Shown: positions 19,147-41,189 of the stretch, one piece after another
Layout: the number at the start of each line of letters is the position of its first letter
Position numbering within the stretch: the stretch's first letter is position 1
Virus record (IMG/VR): IMGVR_UViG_3300046652_000002
Coordinates: 1 to 48,738 of that record
Direction: 5' to 3' (one strand)
From: a virus
Length of the DNA: 48,738 bases
Made by a program: the position numbers and the translations under genes
The notes under the pieces: model-generated
Seen by the model: the letters and a program-made list of their open reading frames with translations, nothing else
Databases searched by the model: none
What the model was told of the DNA's origin: nothing

Positions 19147-20178
19147 ATGGCTGATGATATCGAAACAGATGATGGCTCGGTTCAGACTGAAGAAGACCAA
19201 TCTCAACCTAGCTGGAAGGCTGCTGGTCATAAATACACAGACCTACAGGGAAACGAAATTTCTCCTGCACAATTTCAGCAGCAGCAGAATCAAGTAAGGC
19301 AACTTGCTCAACAGCACGCACAGCAGTTTGCACAGCAGGAATTACTAAGGAAGCATCCTGAGATTCGTGCTAAGATAATGGAGTATCAAGAGAAGTCTCA
19401 GATTGACAATTTGTATCTTCAGAAGAAGTATACAGATCAGCAACGTATGGAGTATAACCAAAGGCACAGTGCTTTGAATAAGATGAAGTCAAATCCATCA
19501 TTCTCAGATGAAGAGAAGGTTGCATACGAAAGAATGGTTGCTTTGCAAGATGGCAATATGAAGCCAACTGATTTCATGCAGTCTAAGCCTTATCCGAAGG
19601 GTAGGGCTCCTGGCGATGATTTCATTGATCCCAATTCCGGCGATCACGTTCATATTGGAATGGATGGAAACAAAAAGATTCTTTCGCATTTTGAGAAAAC
19701 CAAGGAAGGTCTTTCAATGTCAGCCAAGCACAAACTTGACGAAGACAACCTGAAGCATAAGCGTGAGCAAGAAAAGTTCGTTTGGGAACTTCGTAAAGAG
19801 TTTTCAAAGATGAAGACCGAACCTAATCCCACTACTGGAGAGTTGCCGAGGTATTTGAATTCTCAGGAAATTAACGACAAGATTCAGTCTGTAATGGGCG
19901 TCAAGAAGCCAGACGAAGAAAACAGTCAGGCTAAGGTTGACGAAATGCGTAAGGCTGCTGGACTTCAACCCATGAAGTCTGACCCAAAGGCCGCTGCTGC
20001 CGTTGCGGCACAGCATAGTCAGGCTGGAACTCAAACCATTCATCTTGATAGGTCCGATCCTGATAAGCATTACAATACTTTAGCTCCTGGAACTGTGTTC
20101 ATCGGCCCTGACGGACAGCTTCACCAAAAACCTATTGGACAGCAGCAACCACCTGCTGGACAAGCAGCAGAGGAATAA
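19147..20178 (+). CDS. Putative internal virion protein (343 aa)
   Basis: A mostly helical, charged protein. The N-terminal third is Gln-rich (QFQQQQNQVRQLAQQHAQQFAQQ), the middle is Lys/Glu-rich coiled coil, and near residue 150 there is a short GDDFIDPNSGDHVHIGMDG segment. It has no membrane segment or signal peptide. It is sandwiched between the Gly-rich protein and the 1754-residue protein, so it most likely belongs to the set ejected with the genome. The next gene starts one base after its stop. Confidence 0.55.
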   Translation: MADDIETDDGSVQTEEDQSQPSWKAAGHKYTDLQGNEISPAQFQQQQNQVRQLAQQHAQQFAQQELLRKHPEIRAKIMEYQEKSQIDNLYLQKKYTDQQRMEYNQRHSALNKMKSNPSFSDEEKVAYERMVALQDGNMKPTDFMQSKPYPKGRAPGDDFIDPNSGDHVHIGMDGNKKILSHFEKTKEGLSMSAKHKLDEDNLKHKREQEKFVWELRKEFSKMKTEPNPTTGELPRYLNSQEINDKIQSVMGVKKPDEENSQAKVDEMRKAAGLQPMKSDPKAAAAVAAQHSQAGTQTIHLDRSDPDKHYNTLAPGTVFIGPDGQLHQKPIGQQQPPAGQAAEE

Positions 20179-20179
20179 A

Positions 20180-23100
20180 ATGGGTTGGCAAGATGCTCCT
20201 GTTGTTGATGCACAATCCCAACAACAGGATAGTGATTACGATATGAAGGGTGCAATCGCTGCTGGAGTTAAACCCGACAAACGTGGCCATTGGCCAGACA
20301 CTTATAAGAAGCCAAACCATATTACATTTAGTGATGAAAGTAAGTATTCAAACGAGAAAACTACTGGTGGCAAGTGGAGAAAAGGCGATTCTGGAAAATG
20401 GTCGTTTACTCCGTCTAAATATAATTTATCTGTGACCTCTCCAGATAAAATGAGGGAGTATTTCAAAAAGAATGAGCCTGATTCCGAACTGATCCTTCCT
20501 AACGATAATCAATCTTCCGGCAGTTGGCGTGATGCTCCTGTCGTTTCTTCTATTGATGGTCATCATCAAGATTGGATGGATGCTCCAGTTGTTCAGAAGC
20601 CTAGCAAAGAGCAATGGCATGAGCAACAAAAGGAAGTCGGACAATGGATTCATGGCCTTGCTGAAAAGGGCCAAGAGGATTACAATCCGATCAAGCCAAC
20701 TTCTGAAGCGAAGGGTCAACTTACCGAGAAGGGATTTAAGTCTCAATTCCCTGGTCTCGAATGGAATCCTGCGTATGCTCAGGAATATGTAAAGCACGCT
20801 CAGGCATTCAAGGCTGCCCAGGCGATGGTAGGTTCGTTCACTCCTACTATCGAAGACGCAAAGAAGATAGCACAGTCAGTTCCAAAGGACCGAGAATCTC
20901 GTGAGCGTGTCTTGGAAGCTGTCCATAATGCTGCCGTAAAACAGGCTCAGTCTGGTTCTGGTGCGTCTGGTGAGGGTCTTCTTGGTCGTGCTGGAACTGC
21001 TGCCGCTAAGGGACTCGAAAAACTTTCTGGAGATATAGACGAATGGACTGGCGGCGGTCTTGATGATGATACTGCTAGATTCGCTCGGCAATTATACACT
21101 ATAAGAAATCAAGCTGATCCATTAGCTAGGGCTGATACTCCGTGGTGGGAAAGAGGTATTGTCAATGCTTCTGAAATGGCTGCACCAATTGCTGCATCTG
21201 GTGGTGTCGGTAAGTTGGCTGGTGGTGCAGCTAAATTAGCAAAGGCCGGAGAAGGATTGACTTCTGCCGTGTCTGCCGCTGCTGGCATGACTCCATTCGT
21301 TCCTGGTATGTACGACGAGTCGTATGACAATTTACTTCAGAAAGGTGCTTCACCAAAGGCTGCTAAGATTGGTGCTTGGTTTAGTGCTGGTCTACAAAGT
21401 GCCATCTATGGAGGATTGGCAAAGAAGTTGATTCCATTCAGTGTTCCGAAGGGAATCACCCCTAAGTTTACATCTGAGGTTTTGTCTAAGTATCTGACTC
21501 AGATTCCTGCGGGGTCGTCTGCAATGGCGTTTGCATCGGCTGGGGATCAGGCTATCCAAGAGATAGCGGGTGGAAATCTCAGTCTTAAGAATGTAATGTC
21601 TCGTTGGTGGGATTCGTTTAAGGGTGGTCTTGAGACAATGCCATTCCTTGCTGCACCGGAAGCCATTCGTGGAGTAACTAAGGCTCCAGGAAAAGGTGAG
21701 GGAATTGACGAATTGATGTCTAGGTTCGAAGAGAATGTCAAGACAATATCCGAACATAAAGACGAAATCGTAAAGATGGCAGAAGAGGGCGGAACTCCAT
21801 CTAGGGCTCAGTGGATGGAGTGGGGTCTTTCTGGTGGGAGATCAAAGAGTGATCGTGCCAAGCAACTTCAAGATATTGCTAAGGAACTACAAACGAAACC
21901 TGAAGAATTGCCAGCCAGAAATATCCCTGAGAAGTATGGAATTCAAGAAGGTTTTGTTGACAATCTGAAATCAGAATCATCGAAACTCAAGAAGCCTGAA
22001 GGAAAGACTCTTGAGACCTTGTATCCTGCTGATAGTGATAAGCCAGCTATCACTGGAGAACAGATAGGAACAGTAAACGGCAAGAAGGTAATGGCCGTTG
22101 AGGCTGAGGCTGTCAATAAGAGATTGTTCGATGATCCAAATAAGCCTGACTTTGGTGAGTTCACCAGCGGCGGAACGAAGTCAAGATACAAAGAAATACC
22201 TGAAGATCAGATTTGGATTGACAAGGATTCTACTGACAAAGAGCGTCCTAAGTTCGCTTTGCATGAGGCACTTGAAGATCATCTAATGAGCCAGCATGGA
22301 CTTGAGTACGACAAGTCTACGTCTGAACATCCCGAAGGTGCCCACGATATCGCACAGAAGGTCGAACAGGATTGGGCAAGGGAGTCTCCTGGTGGCGATG
22401 TTAATCTAAATGAGCAGAATACAACTGTAACCAAGGCTGCACCAGTTCCGCCCACTCCAACTATTAAATATCAGAGTCCATCCGTCGTTAAGGGATTCAT
22501 GCACGGATTGATGAAGGTTCTCAATCCAACTGCCATCAAGGCTCCTGGTGTTAGAGAGGCAACTCATATTCTCAATCTCTCTGGTGCAAAGGCTGCTCAG
22601 TGGGATGAAGTGGCGATAGCTCACATTGGAAAACTTGACGATACCTTCTATCGAATGACCCCGAAAGAGAACATTCAATTCGCTTTGGATGTTGATGAAG
22701 GAAAGAAGCATCTGAATCCAGATGGAACTGTAAATGGTCGCCTTACTGCAATAGCAAGGGCTCTTGATGAAGCTCGTGCTGAAGCGTGGGAAAGAGTTCA
22801 AGAACGTCGTGGGTCAGGAGAGTTCATTGAAAATTATTTCCCCCGAATCTTTAAGCGAAAGCCCGGTAGCGATGTTGTTGCCGGAAAGATCATGTCTAAG
22901 GCTTTCAGGAAGTCTGGTTTCCTGAAGCATAGAACCCGTGACTTCCTTCGTGAGAGTCTTGATGCTGGTCTTGAACTAGAAGACGAGAATCCTGTTCATT
23001 TGTATATGAAGCGTATTCACCAGATGAACGAATGGTGTGCAAAGACTGACGCATTTAATTCTTTGAAGCAGTCTGGTCTTGCTCGATTTGTTCCTGCTTC

Positions 23101-25444
23101 GATGGAGAAGGACTATACTCCATTCGGATACAAATTGATTAACGACCCTACTTTCAATGTTCAATCTGGTTCCTCGATGACTATTAAAGAGGCTTACGAC
23201 AAACTTCTTCATGACCAACTTCATGCAGTCGCAGCAAACATTGGAGTCAAAATAAATACTGCAACGAAACTCAAAAAGGGAGTTCTCGGGTTCTCTGTTG
23301 AGGGTGGCAAAGAAGTAACTCGTGCATTCGCAACTCCGTTAGGCACACTAGCACACGAGATAGGCCATCAGATTGGAGATATTTTCGGTCTTGGTAAGTA
23401 TATTGATGGTGTTGGTAAAGCACATCCCGAAATGAAGATCGAAGAAGAATGGACTAAGTTAGCCGCATTGCGTCACGAGGGTCAAGCTGCGTCGGATTTC
23501 TTTAAGGGGTATGTTCAGGAACCAGCAGAACGAGAAGCAGTAATTCTCCAGGCTTGGCTCGATACTCCTGATAAGATGCAGCGTGATGCACCGAACATTA
23601 CTGAGTTGTGGAAGAAGTTTCTTGGAGCTAACGAACCAATCAGCCCACTACTTCACTTGGACCGCTCTGTTGTTCTTGGAACTTCAGAAACAGAATTTGA
23701 ACAGCCTGGGGTTCGAGTTCTTGGCCGGTGGGCACTTCCTGATGATGTGGCTACTCTTGTCGAGAATAACCTATCCCTTGGACTGCGATCTAATCCCAAT
23801 GAGGCTATCAGTGGTGCGTACAGAGTGGCAAGACTGTATGGAAATGCACTCAATCAAGCTAGTCTTGGTTTGTCTGCGTATCATGCGATCTTTACTTCAC
23901 TTGACTCAATCTTCTCTCAGGCTGGATTAGGATTTCATCAGGCCACACGAGGAGAGTTCAAACAAGCCGCAGCCAATATAGCTCAGTCTCCGCTTGCCCC
24001 ATTTTCTCTCTATAAGAGAGGCAAGAAAATACAGACTGTAATGAAGGAAGACTTGGATCAAATTCAAGACCCAGAAATTAGGGAGTTGATTGAACTGGGT
24101 ATGACTGGTGGAATGAGATCATCTTTAGATCAGAGATACTCCAACAATTCCTATCGAGTTCTAAAAGATACATTTTATGACCTGAAGAATCATACTGATT
24201 TCGATAAGGGTCTTGGAGACGAAGCTAAGATTGCTGTCCATAGTATTCTTGGTGCAATCGAACTTGCTGCCGCCCCGATTATGAAGTATCAAGTCCCCAG
24301 GCTGAAACTTGGAGTTGCAAATCTTCTGCTGAAGGATTTGTATAGTCGTGCAGAAAAAACTAACATAGATGATTTTCAAAAGCACGAGCAAGCTACTCAG
24401 ATTGTCAATTCTGTAGAGAACAGATTGGGTCAGTTGTGCTATGATAATCTACATTGGAATCAGTTGATGACTGATGCGTGCCAGTTGGCGTTTAGGTCTA
24501 CTGGATGGAATCTAGGATTCATCAGAGAGTACGGCGGATCAGTATCCGATCTGTTCAGCACTAAGAGTAGGGTTAAGTCTGGTGGTGATTGGGTAACTGG
24601 CCGTCAGGCTTATGTGATTACTGCGATTATTGGTAACGCTTTGATTGGCGGAACTCTACATTACTTAATGAATGGAAAACCGCCCGAGACTTTATACGAC
24701 TATATGTTCCCGAAAACTGGGAATAAGAATCCAGATGGTAGTGACGAGAGGATTGCATTGCCTTCATACATGAAGGATATTGTATCGTATAGTTCTAATC
24801 CACTAAGAACTGTGCAACACAAGTTGCACCCCATGTGGGGATCGGTTCTTGAAATTCTTCGTAATGAAGATTTTTATGGTGGTGAAGTTAGGAATGCAAA
24901 AGACCCAATCATGCAACAGATTGGAGACAGCTTATTGCATCTCGGAAAAGCATTCGTTCCATTCTCCAAAAAGAACTTCGATCAGATGAAGAAGGCTGAC
25001 GATCCAACTTGGAAGGCTGCATTGCTTGGTGTGACTGGAATGACTGCCGCACCGGCATACATCACTCAAACTAAAGCAATCAAACTTGCTAATCAATATC
25101 TAGGTGAACGATTGCCTACGAAGCCAAGAACGAAAGAGCAAGTTGAATCATCACAAAAACATGCTAAGTTAGTTAGAACTCTTCGTACAGGAAAGACTGT
25201 ATCAAAAGAAGACATGAAAGGAATGACTTCGGATCAATACAGTAGAGCGTTAAAAGAGGCGTCAATGAGTCCTCTTTCTGCAAAGGTTGGAAGACTTAGT
25301 CTTGAACAGGCACTTGATGTATATGCAGTTAGCGACAAGGAAGAGAAGAAGCAGTTGTTCCAGGCGGTTATCAATAAGCGTGAGCGTCTCAAGAGCATAT
25401 CGCCTACCCTCCTGAAGTATTATAACGATACTATGTCTAGGTAA
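20180..25444 (+). CDS. Giant internal virion protein with zincin motif (1754 aa)
   Basis: The largest gene. The N-terminus carries three WxDAPVV motifs (W3, W116, W132) and a segment (YDMKGAIAAGV, GHWPDTYKKPNHITFSDESKY) known to me from large internal/ejection proteins of podoviruses. Helical membrane-active-like regions (Ala/Gly-rich, about 330-410) follow. HEALEDH is at 695-701, and a classic metallopeptidase HEIGH is at 1059-1063. The C-terminal half is helical. The length matches T7 gp16-like proteins that form the transenvelope ejection tunnel. The HEIGH suggests a protease or wall-cleaving step. ATG at 20180; an upstream TTG at 20135 lies in the previous gene. Confidence 0.7.
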   Translation: MGWQDAPVVDAQSQQQDSDYDMKGAIAAGVKPDKRGHWPDTYKKPNHITFSDESKYSNEKTTGGKWRKGDSGKWSFTPSKYNLSVTSPDKMREYFKKNEPDSELILPNDNQSSGSWRDAPVVSSIDGHHQDWMDAPVVQKPSKEQWHEQQKEVGQWIHGLAEKGQEDYNPIKPTSEAKGQLTEKGFKSQFPGLEWNPAYAQEYVKHAQAFKAAQAMVGSFTPTIEDAKKIAQSVPKDRESRERVLEAVHNAAVKQAQSGSGASGEGLLGRAGTAAAKGLEKLSGDIDEWTGGGLDDDTARFARQLYTIRNQADPLARADTPWWERGIVNASEMAAPIAASGGVGKLAGGAAKLAKAGEGLTSAVSAAAGMTPFVPGMYDESYDNLLQKGASPKAAKIGAWFSAGLQSAIYGGLAKKLIPFSVPKGITPKFTSEVLSKYLTQIPAGSSAMAFASAGDQAIQEIAGGNLSLKNVMSRWWDSFKGGLETMPFLAAPEAIRGVTKAPGKGEGIDELMSRFEENVKTISEHKDEIVKMAEEGGTPSRAQWMEWGLSGGRSKSDRAKQLQDIAKELQTKPEELPARNIPEKYGIQEGFVDNLKSESSKLKKPEGKTLETLYPADSDKPAITGEQIGTVNGKKVMAVEAEAVNKRLFDDPNKPDFGEFTSGGTKSRYKEIPEDQIWIDKDSTDKERPKFALHEALEDHLMSQHGLEYDKSTSEHPEGAHDIAQKVEQDWARESPGGDVNLNEQNTTVTKAAPVPPTPTIKYQSPSVVKGFMHGLMKVLNPTAIKAPGVREATHILNLSGAKAAQWDEVAIAHIGKLDDTFYRMTPKENIQFALDVDEGKKHLNPDGTVNGRLTAIARALDEARAEAWERVQERRGSGEFIENYFPRIFKRKPGSDVVAGKIMSKAFRKSGFLKHRTRDFLRESLDAGLELEDENPVHLYMKRIHQMNEWCAKTDAFNSLKQSGLARFVPASMEKDYTPFGYKLINDPTFNVQSGSSMTIKEAYDKLLHDQLHAVAANIGVKINTATKLKKGVLGFSVEGGKEVTRAFATPLGTLAHEIGHQIGDIFGLGKYIDGVGKAHPEMKIEEEWTKLAALRHEGQAASDFFKGYVQEPAEREAVILQAWLDTPDKMQRDAPNITELWKKFLGANEPISPLLHLDRSVVLGTSETEFEQPGVRVLGRWALPDDVATLVENNLSLGLRSNPNEAISGAYRVARLYGNALNQASLGLSAYHAIFTSLDSIFSQAGLGFHQATRGEFKQAAANIAQSPLAPFSLYKRGKKIQTVMKEDLDQIQDPEIRELIELGMTGGMRSSLDQRYSNNSYRVLKDTFYDLKNHTDFDKGLGDEAKIAVHSILGAIELAAAPIMKYQVPRLKLGVANLLLKDLYSRAEKTNIDDFQKHEQATQIVNSVENRLGQLCYDNLHWNQLMTDACQLAFRSTGWNLGFIREYGGSVSDLFSTKSRVKSGGDWVTGRQAYVITAIIGNALIGGTLHYLMNGKPPETLYDYMFPKTGNKNPDGSDERIALPSYMKDIVSYSSNPLRTVQHKLHPMWGSVLEILRNEDFYGGEVRNAKDPIMQQIGDSLLHLGKAFVPFSKKNFDQMKKADDPTWKAALLGVTGMTAAPAYITQTKAIKLANQYLGERLPTKPRTKEQVESSQKHAKLVRTLRTGKTVSKEDMKGMTSDQYSRALKEASMSPLSAKVGRLSLEQALDVYAVSDKEEKKQLFQAVINKRERLKSISPTLLKYYNDTMSR

Positions 25445-25489: not shown

Positions 25490-26080
25490 ATGAAAAAGCG
25501 AAGAGAAGTCAAGCGAGTTCCATACGCCAAGGCAGAAGATAAGATTCGCACCGGCGATCTTCTAAGCTTCCATCCTAGGTGCAAGTGGTATCAACCTTGG
25601 GGTTGGTTCACTTGGCTTATTGCACTGACTAATCAATATCGCATTTGTCATTCTGCTATGGCGTGCTGGTGGGACAACAATCTTCTTTTGGTTCAAATGA
25701 CGAGTTCTCCAAGTAGGATTATTCTTCTTTCTGATGTTGTTAAACAATGGCCCGGAAAGATAATTGTATCAAGGCCGAACGGTCAATTCCAAGAAGATTA
25801 CGCAACGTCAGTAATGGTTCGCATCACGGAGAAGTCATATGGATGGGTTCGCTTGTTCTTGCTTGGGTTATCTCACACCTTTACCGGTGGCTTATTGTGG
25901 CCCAATCCAATTGACGACGACACCGCTGTATCCGACTTGCCTCCCGTATGTTCTGAATCTTATTCGCGTGCAATGCGTCTCGCAGGCTTTGATCCGGTAG
26001 AGGGAAGACCTGACAGCAAGACTGAGCCACATCATCTGTATGAGAGCCCGAAACTGAAACCTCTTTTCGTATTGGTGTAA
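25490..26080 (+). CDS. Circularly permuted NlpC/P60-like (YiiX-type) hydrolase (196 aa)
   Basis: The permuted papain-like fold is suggested by order: GDLLSF at 22-27, catalytic His54 in ICHSAMACW, then Cys154 in PVCSESYSRAMRLAGF. In this superfamily His comes before Cys when permuted. Members cleave peptides or amides, including peptidoglycan stem peptides, so a lysin or wall-processing role is plausible here at the head of the lysis cassette. There is no signal peptide. It has its own strong promoter with a predicted leaderless start. A lipid-linked or deacylating activity is an alternative for this fold. Confidence 0.6.
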   Translation: MKKRREVKRVPYAKAEDKIRTGDLLSFHPRCKWYQPWGWFTWLIALTNQYRICHSAMACWWDNNLLLVQMTSSPSRIILLSDVVKQWPGKIIVSRPNGQFQEDYATSVMVRITEKSYGWVRLFLLGLSHTFTGGLLWPNPIDDDTAVSDLPPVCSESYSRAMRLAGFDPVEGRPDSKTEPHHLYESPKLKPLFVLV

Positions 26081-26081
26081 C

Positions 26082-26207
26082 ATGGGAACAATTGTTAATG
26101 GTGTCGTGTGGGTTGGCAAGGGTGTCTGTGCCGGGTGTAGTGCCTTGGGTGCCCTGGTGGGTCTCAAGAAGAAAATTAAGGAATCAAAGAAAGGCGATAA
26201 GAAATGA
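26082..26207 (+). CDS. Small membrane peptide of the lysis cassette (41 aa)
   Basis: The ATG follows the hydrolase stop by one base and its TGA overlaps the next ATG (ATGA), so it is coupled on both sides. It has a hydrophobic, Gly/Val-rich N-terminal two thirds (IVNGVVWVGKGVCAGC, ALGALVGL) and a Lys-rich tail (KKKIKESKKGDKK). This layout suits a small holin-like, pinholin-like or membrane-anchored peptide. No family is recognised. Confidence 0.6.
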   Translation: MGTIVNGVVWVGKGVCAGCSALGALVGLKKKIKESKKGDKK

Positions 26208-27223
26208 AGAGGTTTGTTTTTGGTATCATCGCTATTCTGTGTTTGATTTATCTTGTGCCTCAACACAGGCAATCGCTTTTCGAGAACGCAGATTGTAAGT
26301 GCAAATCGAAGTACATGATGTTCTTCCATGCTTCGTGGTGTGGTCCATGTAAGAAAGTCCAGCCTACAATTGACGCCATCAAGAAAGACGGATACAAAGT
26401 TTACGAGATTGATGTTGATATCCAGAAGAACAAATCTCTCGTAGCCAATTACTCAGTGTACTCTTTGCCGACTGTTGTTATTACTGACATTGACGGCAAG
26501 GAATTGTATCGTCACGAGGGTTCAATTGACAAAGAAACAATCGAGAGTGAACTGAAGTCTTGTGGTGACAAGTCTTTTGAAGACACTCGATTCTTCGGTA
26601 GATTTCGTGAGCGATTCAAAAATCGAGGTAGCGACGGAAGGGAAGAAAGGCAGAATCATCGTGATCTGCCTAAAGCCGATTGGAAGAAGTATCCTCAATT
26701 GGTTATCATTGAGAATCAAAGTTCAGGTCAAACAACTTCTATTGTCAGCGGAACAATTGTTGACAGAAATGAAGCGATGGGAGTTGAAATCGTAATTACT
26801 TGTGCCCACGGATACGGTGATGGATGCTCTGAAGAAATCACCATGTATGACGGAAGGAAGTGCGATTCAAGAATCCTTGCGGTGAATCGAGAACTTGATA
26901 CTATGGTTCTCATGATTCCTGATGCAAAGATTCCGCCTTTGCAAATTAAGACTGAGCCATCTAAGGTTGGAGATACCATTAGTATGCTCGGCTTTGCCGA
27001 TGGGAGTATTCTTGTCAGGGTCGAGGGAACGATCCAGGAATTTTCTGCTGACGAGAATATGCTTAGTACCACATGCGATGTTTGGCATGGATGCAGTGGT
27101 GGTCCAGTTGTTGATTCGTCTGGTCGTTTGATTGCTACTGTTACTGGTGGCGTGACTGATGGTGGGTACACTCTCCATAATCTTATTGGACCGTACCTAT
27201 ATCACACATTGCCGCAAATGTAA
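26204..27223 (+). CDS. Thioredoxin-trypsin fusion protein, secreted or membrane-anchored (339 aa)
   Basis: Residues 4-20 are a hydrophobic signal anchor. Residues about 34-120 are a thioredoxin fold with active site WCGPC (C46, C49) and the cis-proline loop SLPT (P89). A charged linker (125-160) follows, then a trypsin-like serine protease from about 165: His202 in TCAHG, Asp232 in ELDTMVLM and Ser298 in GCSGGPV. All three catalytic residues are present, and cysteines are numerous. It would act outside the cytoplasmic membrane, rearranging disulfides and cutting protein. The fusion is unfamiliar to me in phages. It sits in the lysis cassette, coupled by ATGA to the 41-residue peptide. Confidence 0.85.
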   Translation: MKRFVFGIIAILCLIYLVPQHRQSLFENADCKCKSKYMMFFHASWCGPCKKVQPTIDAIKKDGYKVYEIDVDIQKNKSLVANYSVYSLPTVVITDIDGKELYRHEGSIDKETIESELKSCGDKSFEDTRFFGRFRERFKNRGSDGREERQNHRDLPKADWKKYPQLVIIENQSSGQTTSIVSGTIVDRNEAMGVEIVITCAHGYGDGCSEEITMYDGRKCDSRILAVNRELDTMVLMIPDAKIPPLQIKTEPSKVGDTISMLGFADGSILVRVEGTIQEFSADENMLSTTCDVWHGCSGGPVVDSSGRLIATVTGGVTDGGYTLHNLIGPYLYHTLPQM

Positions 27224-27245: not shown

Positions 27246-27824
27246 ATGCGATTCGTTTTGACTTGTGTTCTGGTTCTGAGTGTGTTGTTTGTATTTTCTG
27301 GTTTCGCTTGTGCCCAGGGAACTATCGACAAGGATGCTAAGTTGCCTTGGCGTCAGGGAGTTGAGGACAAGGGCGGCGAGATTTCCGATAGCCTGAAGGC
27401 TATCGCTCAAGGACAACAGCAAATCCTCGAAGAGTTGCGTAAGGATAAGCAGGTTGCTCCCCCGGTGGTTGCTCCCCCGGTTGAGAAGGAAAGCTTGAAG
27501 GATAAGTTTGATGCTAAGAAAGAGGAAATAAAGGATGCTTTGCTTGAGAGTCCTTTCTTGAAGCATCTTGTTGTGATCGTCTTGTGTGTGGGTGGCTTCT
27601 TGCTCTGTAAGGCTGTCTATACCAAGTGTCATGCTGACAAGGCTAAGATTGACGAAGACCTGAAGAACGCTCCTGTCCTAAAGGACTTGTTCGACAAGGT
27701 TGATTCGTTCAATACAAGCGTCCACGATAAGCTGGAAACGCTCAAGACTAAGGTGGAGGCTAAAGTGAATCCTCCCGCTACAGTGGCTCCTGACGCGGCT
27801 CCAGTCGCTCCAGTGGCTAAGTAA
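27246..27824 (+). CDS. Exported coiled-coil membrane protein (192 aa)
   Basis: Residues 1-22 are a signal peptide ending in FACAQG. A Gln/Glu-rich coiled coil is at 45-75, a Pro-rich hinge at about 76-85, and a second membrane segment at about 112-132 (HLVVIVLCVGGFLLCKAVY). A charged helix and an Ala/Pro tail follow. This layout suits a holin, spanin-like or periplasmic scaffold component; I cannot place the family. The ATG at 27246 is preferred (GGAG upstream). It ends 20 bases before a strong terminator. Confidence 0.62.
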   Translation: MRFVLTCVLVLSVLFVFSGFACAQGTIDKDAKLPWRQGVEDKGGEISDSLKAIAQGQQQILEELRKDKQVAPPVVAPPVEKESLKDKFDAKKEEIKDALLESPFLKHLVVIVLCVGGFLLCKAVYTKCHADKAKIDEDLKNAPVLKDLFDKVDSFNTSVHDKLETLKTKVEAKVNPPATVAPDAAPVAPVAK

Positions 27825-27896: not shown

Positions 27897-28220
27897 ATGC
27901 CAGTAAAGAAGAAAGTCGCTAGCTCAGGTCGTGGGGTCGCACAGCTTAGGCAAGAAGTCCATGAGTATCACATGGAAGTTACTAAGACGTTATCTGCAAT
28001 GCAAGAGAACTGTAAGCACTGTCATTCAACAGTGCATGACCTAGACTTGCAGATCAACGGAGAGAAGCCAGAGCGGGACAATGCCCCGAGTATGAAGAAT
28101 GATATCTCCTCCCTCAAGCAGTCCAGGGATAGCGTTAGAACTGGCGTTCGCTGGCTCTGGACGGTTGTGGTGGGAGTTGGGGGCTTGCTTATCAGCATCT
28201 TCAGCATCAAAAAGATGTAG
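27897..28220 (+). CDS. Holin-like/hemolysin XhlA-like membrane protein (107 aa)
   Basis: Residues about 15-80 are charged and coiled-coil-like with a CKHCH pair. A single C-terminal membrane segment lies at about 86-104 (LWTVVVGVGGLLISIFSI), with a KKM end. A helical cytoplasmic part plus one C-terminal membrane anchor is the layout of XhlA-type hemolysins and some holins found in lysis cassettes. It is placed after the terminator, so expression may depend on read-through. GGAGA precedes the ATG by 12 bases. Confidence 0.62.
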   Translation: MPVKKKVASSGRGVAQLRQEVHEYHMEVTKTLSAMQENCKHCHSTVHDLDLQINGEKPERDNAPSMKNDISSLKQSRDSVRTGVRWLWTVVVGVGGLLISIFSIKKM

Positions 28221-28422: not shown

Positions 28423-28869
28423 TTAACTCTTTAGGATTGCGATTACTGTCTCGATTGCCTCTTCTAATGTCTGGACTCTGAAGCCTGTCGCCTCGTTAAT
28501 CATAGCGTGATGGTGAGGGTTTCCGGACTCTTCAATTGCCATAACAACTGGAATCTGATTATCCCATGCCCATGCGACTTCCATGACTGTTCCGATACTC
28601 ACAGTCTTTGCTCCAATGAAGTTCACTAGGACAATATCGCATCGCGTACAATCCCAATGGTCACGAGTCATAATTCCTCGCGCAGAACTTAATGGGTGAT
28701 TGTATTCATTCCCCATTTCTACAAACGCTTCGAGATAGCTCTTTGCACGCATAGGGTCCAACCCTTCGATATCAAATTCCTTAAGTCGCTCGATTGCCTT
28801 CTTTCTCCAATCGGTGCATCCTTGATAAGTACAACCAGTGATCGGGCCAGCAAGGTAAACACTTTTCAT
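28423..28869 (-). CDS. Nucleoside 2-deoxyribosyltransferase-like protein (148 aa)
   Basis: A Rossmann-like fold of the Nuc_deoxyrib_tr family. YLAGPITG at residues 5-12 forms the first substrate loop, CDIVLVNF the central strand, and SIGTVMEVAWAW carries the expected catalytic Glu. Members swap or hydrolyse the base of deoxynucleosides or nucleotides, for pool salvage or modified bases. It is the last gene of the leftward arm and overlaps the ATP-grasp gene (ATGA), so the two are coupled and probably act together. A 5'-monophosphate glycosidase is an alternative activity in the same family. Confidence 0.75.
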   Translation of the reverse strand: MKSVYLAGPITGCTYQGCTDWRKKAIERLKEFDIEGLDPMRAKSYLEAFVEMGNEYNHPLSSARGIMTRDHWDCTRCDIVLVNFIGAKTVSIGTVMEVAWAWDNQIPVVMAIEESGNPHHHAMINEATGFRVQTLEEAIETVIAILKS

Positions 28870-29822
28870 TTCGTAGAATCCTCTATGATTACTTGGATAG
28901 CTGCATCAAATTCGACACCTGCGAACTTAACTGATTCTGCCCACCACGCATCAGGAGCAAGGAACGATCCAACATTGATATCAATGATGTAAGAATTGTT
29001 ATCCTTGTCTACCCGATAGTCAATCCGACCCCACCCGCATAAATGGAAAAGTTTGATACACTGCTTGCTATTGTATCTGAGGCTTGTAAGCAAGCGTTCA
29101 TCAGATTCAGTAAACTCGAAACGTGATCCTGTGTGTTTGTACTCGAAGGAATCAGGGCTCCACTTCGCTGATTGAGCCAGTATCTTTGGCTTCCCATCTG
29201 GATAGCCTTGATATGTAACTTCAGCAATCGGCAATAGACCTGTTCCAAGGAATGGTACGGTGAATTCTCGTCCTTCAATGTATTGCTCCGCGAATAGTTG
29301 AGACTTCTCTTCCTTCATTCTCTTACGGAGAATCCTCTGAACGAATCTTGTCGTTCCTTCAACAACAGAGTTATCAGACATTGCAAAAGAACCATCGGCG
29401 GCACTTCCCTTGATGATCCACTTTCCACCTTTCTGCTTGTCGGTATCGACAGTGATTTCATTTGGGGTAGGAAGATCATGTTCCCTTAGTCGTTCCTTGG
29501 CTACCAGCTTACGAGTGACATTAGATAGAACAATCGCATCAGGGCCAGTATGCCGAATCCCACAAGCATCAAGGACAGCAATAGGCAAGTGACTAAGACA
29601 ATCCTTGCTGTCCAAAGTATCAAGCAAGTTGAAGCATAGGCGAGGCTTCTCTTGCGTGATTCGGTCCTTAAAAGCCAAGAGGTCGAGAGTGCATGGAACC
29701 AAGACATAATCATGTTGAAGTCTCGTTAGTGTTTCGGTGATGATCTTGACTTGCTGTAGAACGTCCTTGTCGGCAAGTACATCTTCAGGAGAAATCTCGT
29801 CGAAGAGAACAGCTATCTTCAT
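28866..29822 (-). CDS. ATP-grasp ligase resembling D-Ala-D-Ala ligase (318 aa)
   Basis: The protein follows D-alanine-D-alanine ligase order. CFNLLDTLD and GIRHTGPDA mark the N-terminal substrate domain, then KERLREHDLPTP. WIIKGSA, LFAEQYIEGREFTV and the metal-binding GWGRIDYRVD ... YIIDINVG are the ATP-grasp core. The usual E-x-N metal pair is D-x-N here. Such enzymes join a carboxylate to an amine with ATP. The substrate is unknown; amino acids, a peptide or a modified nucleotide are all possible. It overlaps genes on both sides by ATGA, in a cluster with nucleotide-pool enzymes. Confidence 0.8.
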   Translation of the reverse strand: MKIAVLFDEISPEDVLADKDVLQQVKIITETLTRLQHDYVLVPCTLDLLAFKDRITQEKPRLCFNLLDTLDSKDCLSHLPIAVLDACGIRHTGPDAIVLSNVTRKLVAKERLREHDLPTPNEITVDTDKQKGGKWIIKGSAADGSFAMSDNSVVEGTTRFVQRILRKRMKEEKSQLFAEQYIEGREFTVPFLGTGLLPIAEVTYQGYPDGKPKILAQSAKWSPDSFEYKHTGSRFEFTESDERLLTSLRYNSKQCIKLFHLCGWGRIDYRVDKDNNSYIIDINVGSFLAPDAWWAESVKFAGVEFDAAIQVIIEDSTK

Positions 29823-30357: not shown

Positions 30358-30726
30358 TCAATCCCAATTGTTGGCTTCTTCGTTTGGTTGGAATCCAGTT
30401 TGCTTCTTCATCAATTCGTGAAGATATCCCATCGCATTGAAGATAACAGCACAAAGGGATTCTTCAAGAGAGTAAGTTACGTCTCCCACGTTCTCTCTAT
30501 GTTTCATCCAAACATCAAGAAAATGCCGAAACATGCTTTTTATATAAACATCACAGGGAATGCCCTTTTGCCAGTTGTCGCTGTCTCTTACTTTTCCATC
30601 AGCCTGAACGCGATGCTTATGTAGATACTCGCAATATCTCTTGATTACCACAGGAGAAAGAAATCCTTCTGGGTCAAGTTTTGTTGTGTCTGTATCTCTT
30701 GTTGCTCCTGTTTCAAACACTCTCAT
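30358..30726 (-). CDS. dATP/dGTP diphosphohydrolase (MazZ/DUF5664-like), 122 aa
   Basis: FETGATRDTD near the N-terminus, LDPEGFLSPVVIKRYCEYL, NWQKGIP and FRHFLDVW match the family named dATP/dGTP diphosphohydrolase, N-terminal (DUF5664), the MazG-like pyrophosphatases that remove purine dNTPs in phages such as S-2L. The Glu/Asp/His cluster (ESLCAVIFNAMGYLHE) fits an all-alpha NTP pyrophosphohydrolase. The ATG at 30726 is chosen (GGAGG upstream); an in-frame TTG two codons earlier lies within the site. It could shift the purine pool in favour of phage DNA or a modified base. Confidence 0.75.
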   Translation of the reverse strand: MRVFETGATRDTDTTKLDPEGFLSPVVIKRYCEYLHKHRVQADGKVRDSDNWQKGIPCDVYIKSMFRHFLDVWMKHRENVGDVTYSLEESLCAVIFNAMGYLHELMKKQTGFQPNEEANNWD

Positions 30727-31099
30727 TGTCAACCTCCCTTTTGTTCATTAGTCTTTCAATGCCAGATGACAACAATGCGATTGCTCGTTCTGCTTGATTA
30801 CGCTTCGTTTCTGAGATATACGGCCACAAGATTGAGAGTACAAATTCAACATCTGATTTCTTGCATACTAAATACTGATGTTGATTTATTTCCTTCCCCG
30901 TCTTTGTTTTCCGATAAATTTTACCAACGCCCACTGCGTTAATAAATCTAATTAGCGATTCTGAAATTGATCCATCATGCCTATCTTTCTGTCCAATTGA
31001 CAATTGTATTCTTGTATATGGATTTCCGTTGTTGGAAGTACATGAGACCGATCCTTCTCCATCATAGAATCCAGCCGCCCATGCTAATTCTATGTCCAT
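30713..31099 (-). CDS. LAGLIDADG-type homing endonuclease (128 aa)
   Basis: WAAGFYDGEGSV at about 8-19 is the active-site helix and acidic residue of a single-motif LAGLIDADG enzyme, which acts as a homodimer. QKDRHDGSISESLIRFINAVG and YRKTKTGKEINQHQYLV are typical of the rest of the fold. It is freestanding, not in an intron or intein, and is inserted between the metallophosphoesterase and the MazZ-like gene with overlaps on both sides, so it behaves as a selfish passenger that has adapted to the operon. Confidence 0.82.
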   Translation of the reverse strand: MDIELAWAAGFYDGEGSVSCTSNNGNPYTRIQLSIGQKDRHDGSISESLIRFINAVGVGKIYRKTKTGKEINQHQYLVCKKSDVEFVLSILWPYISETKRNQAERAIALLSSGIERLMNKREVDNESV

Positions 31100-40480: not shown

Positions 40481-40515
40481 AATCCTACCCTACAAAGTGA
40501 GAAAACCTCTGTCAA
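40481..40515 (-). promoter_or_regulatory. Sigma-70 promoter of the recombination genes, predicted leaderless
   Basis: On the leftward strand, TTGACA (40515-40510), a 17-base spacer and TAGGGT (40492-40487) precede an ATG at 40480 by six bases. The -10 box is weaker than the other promoters. It would separate expression of the Sak4/DUF669/nuclease genes from the recombinase gene upstream. Confidence 0.5.
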
Positions 40516-41189
40516 GAGGAAACCTTGGATTTTTCTCTGGCAATGATTCTTCGGACTGTTCGGGCTGACCAAGGCTTTTTGCGACAAGGGAGGTAATACT
40601 TATTCAAGTCACTTGCTATGCAATTTGAAGCATGATGGCAGTTACGCATTATGTAACGGATAGCTTGCTGCTCTTTTACATCTTCCTCAAGTTCGTCTTT
40701 TCCCTTAACTTTTCGGTATCCTATCGGCGGTCGCCCACACCATACACCGTCACGCTTCTTCTTTGCTAGCCCGCTCTTGGTACGCTCTGAGAACTTTTCT
40801 CGCTCGAATTGAGCGAACGACGCCAAGATGTTTTGGAACAACCTTCCTTCCGGCGTGCAGCGAAGCGGAGAGCCATCAGCGAACTCGATTGTGCAACCTT
40901 TCGATTCTACTTCGTGATGTATCGTGAGAGCAACAAGCATGTCCCTTGCGAGTCGGTCGTTCCGGTCAACAACCAAAACCATTCCATTCTCAAGAAGCCC
41001 AAGAGCAACTTGAAGCATCGGCCTATTGACAGTCTTTCCTGATACATTGCGATCAGGGAAATATCCAACAACTTCATATCCACGATTGTCACAATACAAT
41101 CTGCATCTTTCCTCTTGCTTCTCGCAGGAATCGCAATCCCTTGCATTTGGACGCGGCGAAAATCGAGTGTAGATAATAGCCTTAGTCAT
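40512..41189 (-). CDS. Small serine recombinase/resolvase (225 aa)
   Basis: The N-terminal resolvase domain has catalytic Ser11 in YTRFS, the loop DRNDRLARD (75-83) with its arginines, and FEREKFSERTKSGL at 129-141. A C-terminal DNA-binding part with HTH-like WSARTVRRIIARE follows. Length 225 fits small serine resolvases/invertases rather than large integrases. CDSC and other Cys pairs are present near the N-terminus. It could resolve dimers, invert a segment or integrate; no att or res site is evident to me. ATG overlaps the preceding stop by eight bases. Confidence 0.85.
   Translation of the reverse strand: MTKAIIYTRFSPRPNARDCDSCEKQEERCRLYCDNRGYEVVGYFPDRNVSGKTVNRPMLQVALGLLENGMVLVVDRNDRLARDMLVALTIHHEVESKGCTIEFADGSPLRCTPEGRLFQNILASFAQFEREKFSERTKSGLAKKKRDGVWCGRPPIGYRKVKGKDELEEDVKEQQAIRYIMRNCHHASNCIASDLNKYYLPCRKKPWSARTVRRIIAREKSKVSS

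Follow-up and report, generated by a model that had tools for sequence, protein, structure and literature searches.

The canonical phage lysis cassette (endolysin, holin, Rz/Rz1) places a hydrolase without a signal peptide and small transmembrane (TM) proteins near the structural genes, and in well-studied Gram-negative phages the late weakening of the envelope is the job of the spanins. The virus genome analysed here, an entire IMG/VR record of 48,738 bases classed as linear and hereafter called the window, has the same kind of arrangement, but adds a protease and a thioredoxin (Trx), both exported, lacks a clear spanin, and encodes a C92/YiiX-type hydrolase in place of a classical endolysin. 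The added protease and Trx domains are joined in one protein, P0001. DegS/HtrA-type proteases, MarP among them, resemble it in their trypsin-like fold, His-Asp-Ser triad, N-terminal anchor and periplasmic placement (predicted in the case of P0001), whereas P0001 has no PDZ domain, carries Trx between anchor and protease, and is phage-borne. TlpA, DsbE, ResA and thioredoxin resemble the other half in their thioredoxin fold with CxxC and their membrane tether; unlike TlpA, DsbE and ResA, P0001 has the WCGPC of reducing thioredoxins and is fused to a protease. In SAR endolysins such as P1 Lyz, lysis chemistry is tied to periplasmic thiol/disulfide exchange, but there the endolysin itself is switched, whereas the window encodes a separate Trx domain. 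SAR endolysins have been discussed elsewhere (PMC3556154).

P0001 is a single intact frame of 339 amino acids (window 26204-27223, + strand). Hydropathy shows one N-terminal hydrophobic anchor at residues 1-19, followed by the Trx domain (residues 26-118, DNA 26279-26557), a basic linker (about 119-160) and a trypsin-like region (about 165-316), of which residues 182-311 are encoded by 26747-27136. Both domains lie well above Pfam curated cut-offs (Thioredoxin PF00085, residues 26-118, 53.9 bits against 23.5, E 2e-14; Trypsin_2 PF13365, residues 182-311, 67.3 bits against 27.6, E 3.1e-18), and PHROGs agrees (thioredoxin 2.5e-10, protease 4e-6). The Trx site reads W45-C46-G47-P48-C49, and the protease triad consists of H202 in TCAH, D232 in ELDTMV and S298 in GCSGGP, all three invariant in the protease alignment. 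Pfam detects no PDZ domain, and the chain stops 41 residues past S298. The original prediction, which had read a Trx and a trypsin-like domain in one protein, was thus correct in its frame, coordinates, anchor, C46/C49, His202, Asp232 and Ser298.

Structure prediction, proposed at the outset as a check, supports both folds. An AlphaFold model built on a 12-sequence alignment spanning both domains has a mean pLDDT of 77.5, with ten-residue blocks at about 76-96 in the confidently modelled Trx domain and for the most part at 85-93 in the protease, and values below 50 at 129-148 in the linker and at 317-339; an earlier run with Trx homologues alone gave a good Trx part and a poor remainder, protease included. 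The top PDB fold match (Foldseek) is the DegS protease domain at E 1e-12. Two BFVD models (A0A2H4KIR0 and A0A8S5MFA3) align with P0001 over more than 250 columns, at an rmsd of about 21 A. P0001 does not reach the cut-offs of the described equivalogs: it scores 16-28 bits against the NCBIfam DegS/DegP/HtrA models, whose cut-offs exceed 400, and its Trx domain falls below the equivalog cut-offs of TlpA/DsbE/ResA-type models.

The gene lies in a compact cassette. Upstream is a 1769-aa protein (20135-25444, +) that we take as a virion protein, with a partial homologue in contig L005 and no Pfam or PHROG match. It is followed by a C92/YiiX-type permuted papain-like hydrolase (25490-26080, +), the endolysin candidate, which has neither signal peptide nor TM segment and no Pfam match by itself, and is assigned by homology: it is 36% identical to a protein of contig L096 that scores as PF05708, the C92 hydrolase profile matches PDB 3kw0 at 9e-13, and H54 and C154 are invariant in the alignment. 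A 41-aa peptide (26082-26207, +) with one weak hydrophobic stretch (residues 8-26), a Lys-rich tail and no family above cut-off comes next, its stop codon overlapping the ATG of P0001. Downstream are an exported protein that combines a signal peptide with an LPWR motif, a coil and a second TM (27246-27824, +; the likely start is 27246, the first in-frame ATG being at 27159) and an XhlA-like coil with a C-terminal TM (27897-28220, +), which has homologues in the same block of contigs L008, L020, L029 and L011 (E 5e-9 to 4e-3) and a weak Pfam XhlA score of 0.063. Overall, LPWR is rare (56 of 22,289 ORFs), and it recurs in exported TM proteins of relatives. A nucleoside 2-deoxyribosyltransferase-like gene (28423-28869, -), also with a relative in L005, marks the far edge of the cassette; beyond it, an ATP-grasp protein (28866-29822, -) resembles D-alanine--D-alanine ligase (PF07478 3e-8; NF002378 1.2e-17, below its curated cut-off).

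Holin/XhlA family scores of the small TM proteins are weak (0.06-0.1), as are the Rz-like PHROG scores in the cassette (0.033 and 0.036), and among the window proteins scanned there is no further peptidoglycan-hydrolase family, no classical endolysin family and no clear spanin. Exported members of the cassette carry signal/anchor or lipobox-like N-termini; the C92 hydrolase carries none. The hydrolase, short peptide and signal-peptide protein named originally as neighbours are where they were placed, and the description of a lysis-like neighbourhood, in which a hydrolase lacking a signal peptide is grouped with small TM proteins and an exported protease and Trx, stands.

The fusion is not confined to the window. 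Four further viral contigs carry both domains fused: L095 (3300044991_001983), L096 (3300044991_001606), L142 (3300033067_000643) and L083 (IMGVR 3300017971_000072). The first three, which came from a broader scan, each encode an anchor, Trx with WCGPC, trypsin with an intact triad, and a long tail with a TM segment. P0001, L095 and L096 also share an interdomain motif, FRE[KR][LF]K[SN]RG, and because of it these three fusions probably descend from a common ancestor; the linker of L142 is shorter. L083, from a relative of the window, has a lipobox-like start and the opposite order, trypsin (73-213) then Trx (241-317), and is best read as an independent event. The window's terminase finds no match in the records of L096 and L142, and the fusion thus also occurs outside the window's phage group. 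Since Trx-then-trypsin proteins recur in other contigs, and two of these have the linker motif as well, P0001 is neither an assembly error or frameshift joining two genes, which had been named as what would refute the prediction, nor a unique oddity. Between L095 and L096, dN is about 0.10 and dS about 0.75 (dN/dS about 0.13), with 0.10 and 0.98 for the Trx domain and 0.08 and 0.78 for the trypsin domain; both domains are under purifying selection.

The claim that no described phage protein joins these folds agrees with the annotated phages searched; the four viral contigs above show that the fusion is not unique. Across 50,697 annotated phage records no locus reaches 80% coverage of the fusion, and each of the matches listed touches one P0001 domain or little more; plasmids give the same picture. 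In 388 Verrucomicrobiota genomes, with at most three candidates scored per genome, none of the matches listed spans both domains.

Component profiles recover a conserved order, kept in relatives and in other lineages: virion protein, C92 hydrolase, a Cys-protease-like lipoprotein (pap) or trypsin, LPWR/TM protein, TM134, Trx and XhlA-like protein, sometimes with an extra trypsin. Because the profiles draw in part on these same sequences, what they document is distribution; independent support for family membership comes from Pfam, for Trx, trypsin and C92. Using TM134, a small TM gene that is neither protease nor Trx, as an anchor, we find a Trx-profile ORF adjoining it in 26 of 36 loci and a trypsin present in 12, the 36 including near-duplicates and truncated loci. 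By Pfam, among the related contigs, separate exported trypsins stand in the cassette block of L003, L020 and L021, and separate exported Trx proteins in that of L007, L008, L022 (just under the cut-off) and L038. The block of L084 has one gene each for trypsin, Trx and pap. In the window P0001 occupies the usual place of pap and the LPWR protein. The element made of signal peptide, LPWR, coil and TM is the separate next gene there (from 27246) and part of the same chain as the fusion in L096; in L020 the C-terminal LPWR/TM element carries a trypsin domain in place of the other exported domain that it bears elsewhere.

Some proteins of these blocks deserve mention in their own right. The pap lipoproteins (e.g., L038:20084-20716 and L029:14447-15043) have no clear Pfam match, are absent from annotated phages, and have invariant C79, H154/H160 and D170/N171; they are possibly a new papain/C39-like protease family, an assignment resting on the invariant residues only, as no PDB match was obtained. 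LPWR-containing 'trx2' proteins look Trx-like by eye, but with an hhalign probability of 2% they are not taken to have a Trx fold. A tyrosine-recombinase-like gene lies beside the cassette in L007, L008, L011, L029, L038 and L083.

The window's terminase and capsid have weak or no relatives among annotated phages, and queries of viral contigs with P0001 and the 1769-aa protein found no close relatives. The prim-pol, used as a query, retrieved a set of uncultured contigs, the longest of about 52 kb, and, among bacterial genomes, matches in a Lentisphaerae MAG and in Cerasicoccus frondis (Puniceicoccales, Verrucomicrobiota). The C. frondis match belongs to a provirus (contig JAVDPC010000005.1; L082, L085-L088) with structural and replication genes, an integrase-like gene and host genes at its ends. 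It is the nearest host-linked relative of the window, with shared proteins that include terminase (47% identity), portal-like protein (46%), capsid (68%), helicase (49%) and AAA protein (57%). A serine recombinase (window 40512-41189, -; PF00239 1e-33) is conserved in relatives and in this provirus, and a LAGLIDADG homing endonuclease-like ORF (30713-31099, -; PF00961 1.2e-6) lies among the early genes of the window. Beside the virion protein, the expected place, the provirus has no recognisable exit cassette, and the host link is therefore indirect.

A proteinaceous, disulfide-rich envelope, as in Planctomycetes, had been suggested as one possible target. The Cerasicoccus provirus favours a PVC-type host, but not a wall of protein alone. 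C. frondis is called peptidoglycan-less in the title of Yoon et al. 2010, as cited in PMC5303756; its genome encodes MraY (E 7e-110, above cut-off) and two penicillin-binding transpeptidases, and peptidoglycan has been found in subdivision-4 relatives (PMC5303756), so that a purely proteinaceous wall is not supported.

We tentatively favour, at somewhat less than an even chance, a reading of P0001 as a periplasmic, inner-membrane-tethered reductase-protease that serves a phage exit cassette and weakens the envelope late in infection. P0001 would be exported, its Trx domain would open disulfides in envelope or secreted proteins, and the tethered protease would then cut the proteins so opened, with the C92 hydrolase as probable endolysin and the small membrane proteins as holin candidates acting on the envelope alongside it. 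Electrons for the Trx domain would have to come from a host DsbD/CcdA-type reductant. This reading is favoured by the domain and residue evidence together with the fused homologues in L095, L096, L142 and L083, by the low dN/dS of both domains, by the conserved cassette order with Trx adjoining TM134, by the placement of the L020 trypsin on an LPWR/TM element, by the export signals of the cassette members next to a hydrolase that has none, and by the lack of another peptidoglycan-hydrolase family among the window proteins scanned. Against it stand the weak holin, spanin and XhlA resemblances (E 0.03-0.1), the Cerasicoccus provirus with its missing cassette, and the fact that cytoplasmic thioredoxins with other uses are common in phages.

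An anchored, exported protease and oxidoreductase would be equally fit for remodelling the envelope before lysis, and P0001 might instead be a periplasmic host-takeover factor, acting in superinfection exclusion, in receptor removal or in shielding phage proteins that are exported. In keeping with such a role, relatives L005 and L007 encode additional trypsins (L003 type) close to their replication genes. The constant place right behind the virion protein and C92 hydrolase, beside small TM proteins, speaks against it, and we consider this unlikely, if the nearest contender. The L003-type trypsins form a second group, in or near replication genes of relatives (L005:2619-3503, L007:7322-8239, L023:4821-6044).

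Alternatively, the exported Trx could serve as a thiol switch that keeps the cassette's cysteine enzymes (the C92 hydrolase and, in relatives, pap) reduced at the active site, and so active, in the oxidising periplasm, and in this way times lysis, while the protease only processes cassette proteins. The invariant His and Cys of the hydrolase, and the pairing of Trx with pap in most relatives, speak for this, but in the window and the other fusions Trx is joined to a protease of the serine type, which requires no reduction, and the pap fold lacks PDB-profile support; such a switch seems about as unlikely as the host-takeover role. That the Trx domain controls its own protease is suggested by GCSGGP and TCAH, which put cysteines next to both catalytic residues (C297 near S298, C200 near H202), and by the score of the protease domain against MarP, which is disulfide-stabilised, although that score is far below NCBIfam cut-offs. 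In the other Trx-trypsin fusions the serine motif is GDSGG and the histidine motif TANH or TAAH, with no flanking Cys, and this redox gating seems very unlikely. Equally hard to credit is a role in the virion or in ejection, with P0001 packaged together with the large upstream protein to cross the envelope at entry, for although the gene is immediately downstream of the structural block, the signal anchors, lipobox-like N-termini and C-terminal TM of the homologues fit export better than packaging.

Each of the two domains is ordinary alone; it is their fusion in phage, in two orders, that is apparently undescribed, and neither the fusion nor the wider cassette was found in annotated phage records or in the literature searched. 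That literature yielded nothing on how phages breach Verrucomicrobiota hosts, and the report of the first lytic phage of Verrucomicrobiota is silent on lysis and on any holin, endolysin or protease (PMC4642752). The pairing of exported Trx and protease, and their fusion in both orders, points to one shared envelope task, and the recurrence of the pair in one conserved block suggests that these phages attack the host envelope in a way not yet described. It is possible, though on balance doubtful, that this amounts to an exit system of Verrucomicrobiota phages in which an exported disulfide reductase and a protease, fused or neighbouring, replace spanins at the outer envelope and work with a C92-type endolysin. 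If this is true, a redox-plus-proteolysis step would join the known ways in which phages leave the cell, and the cassette supplies genes with which it can be tested directly.
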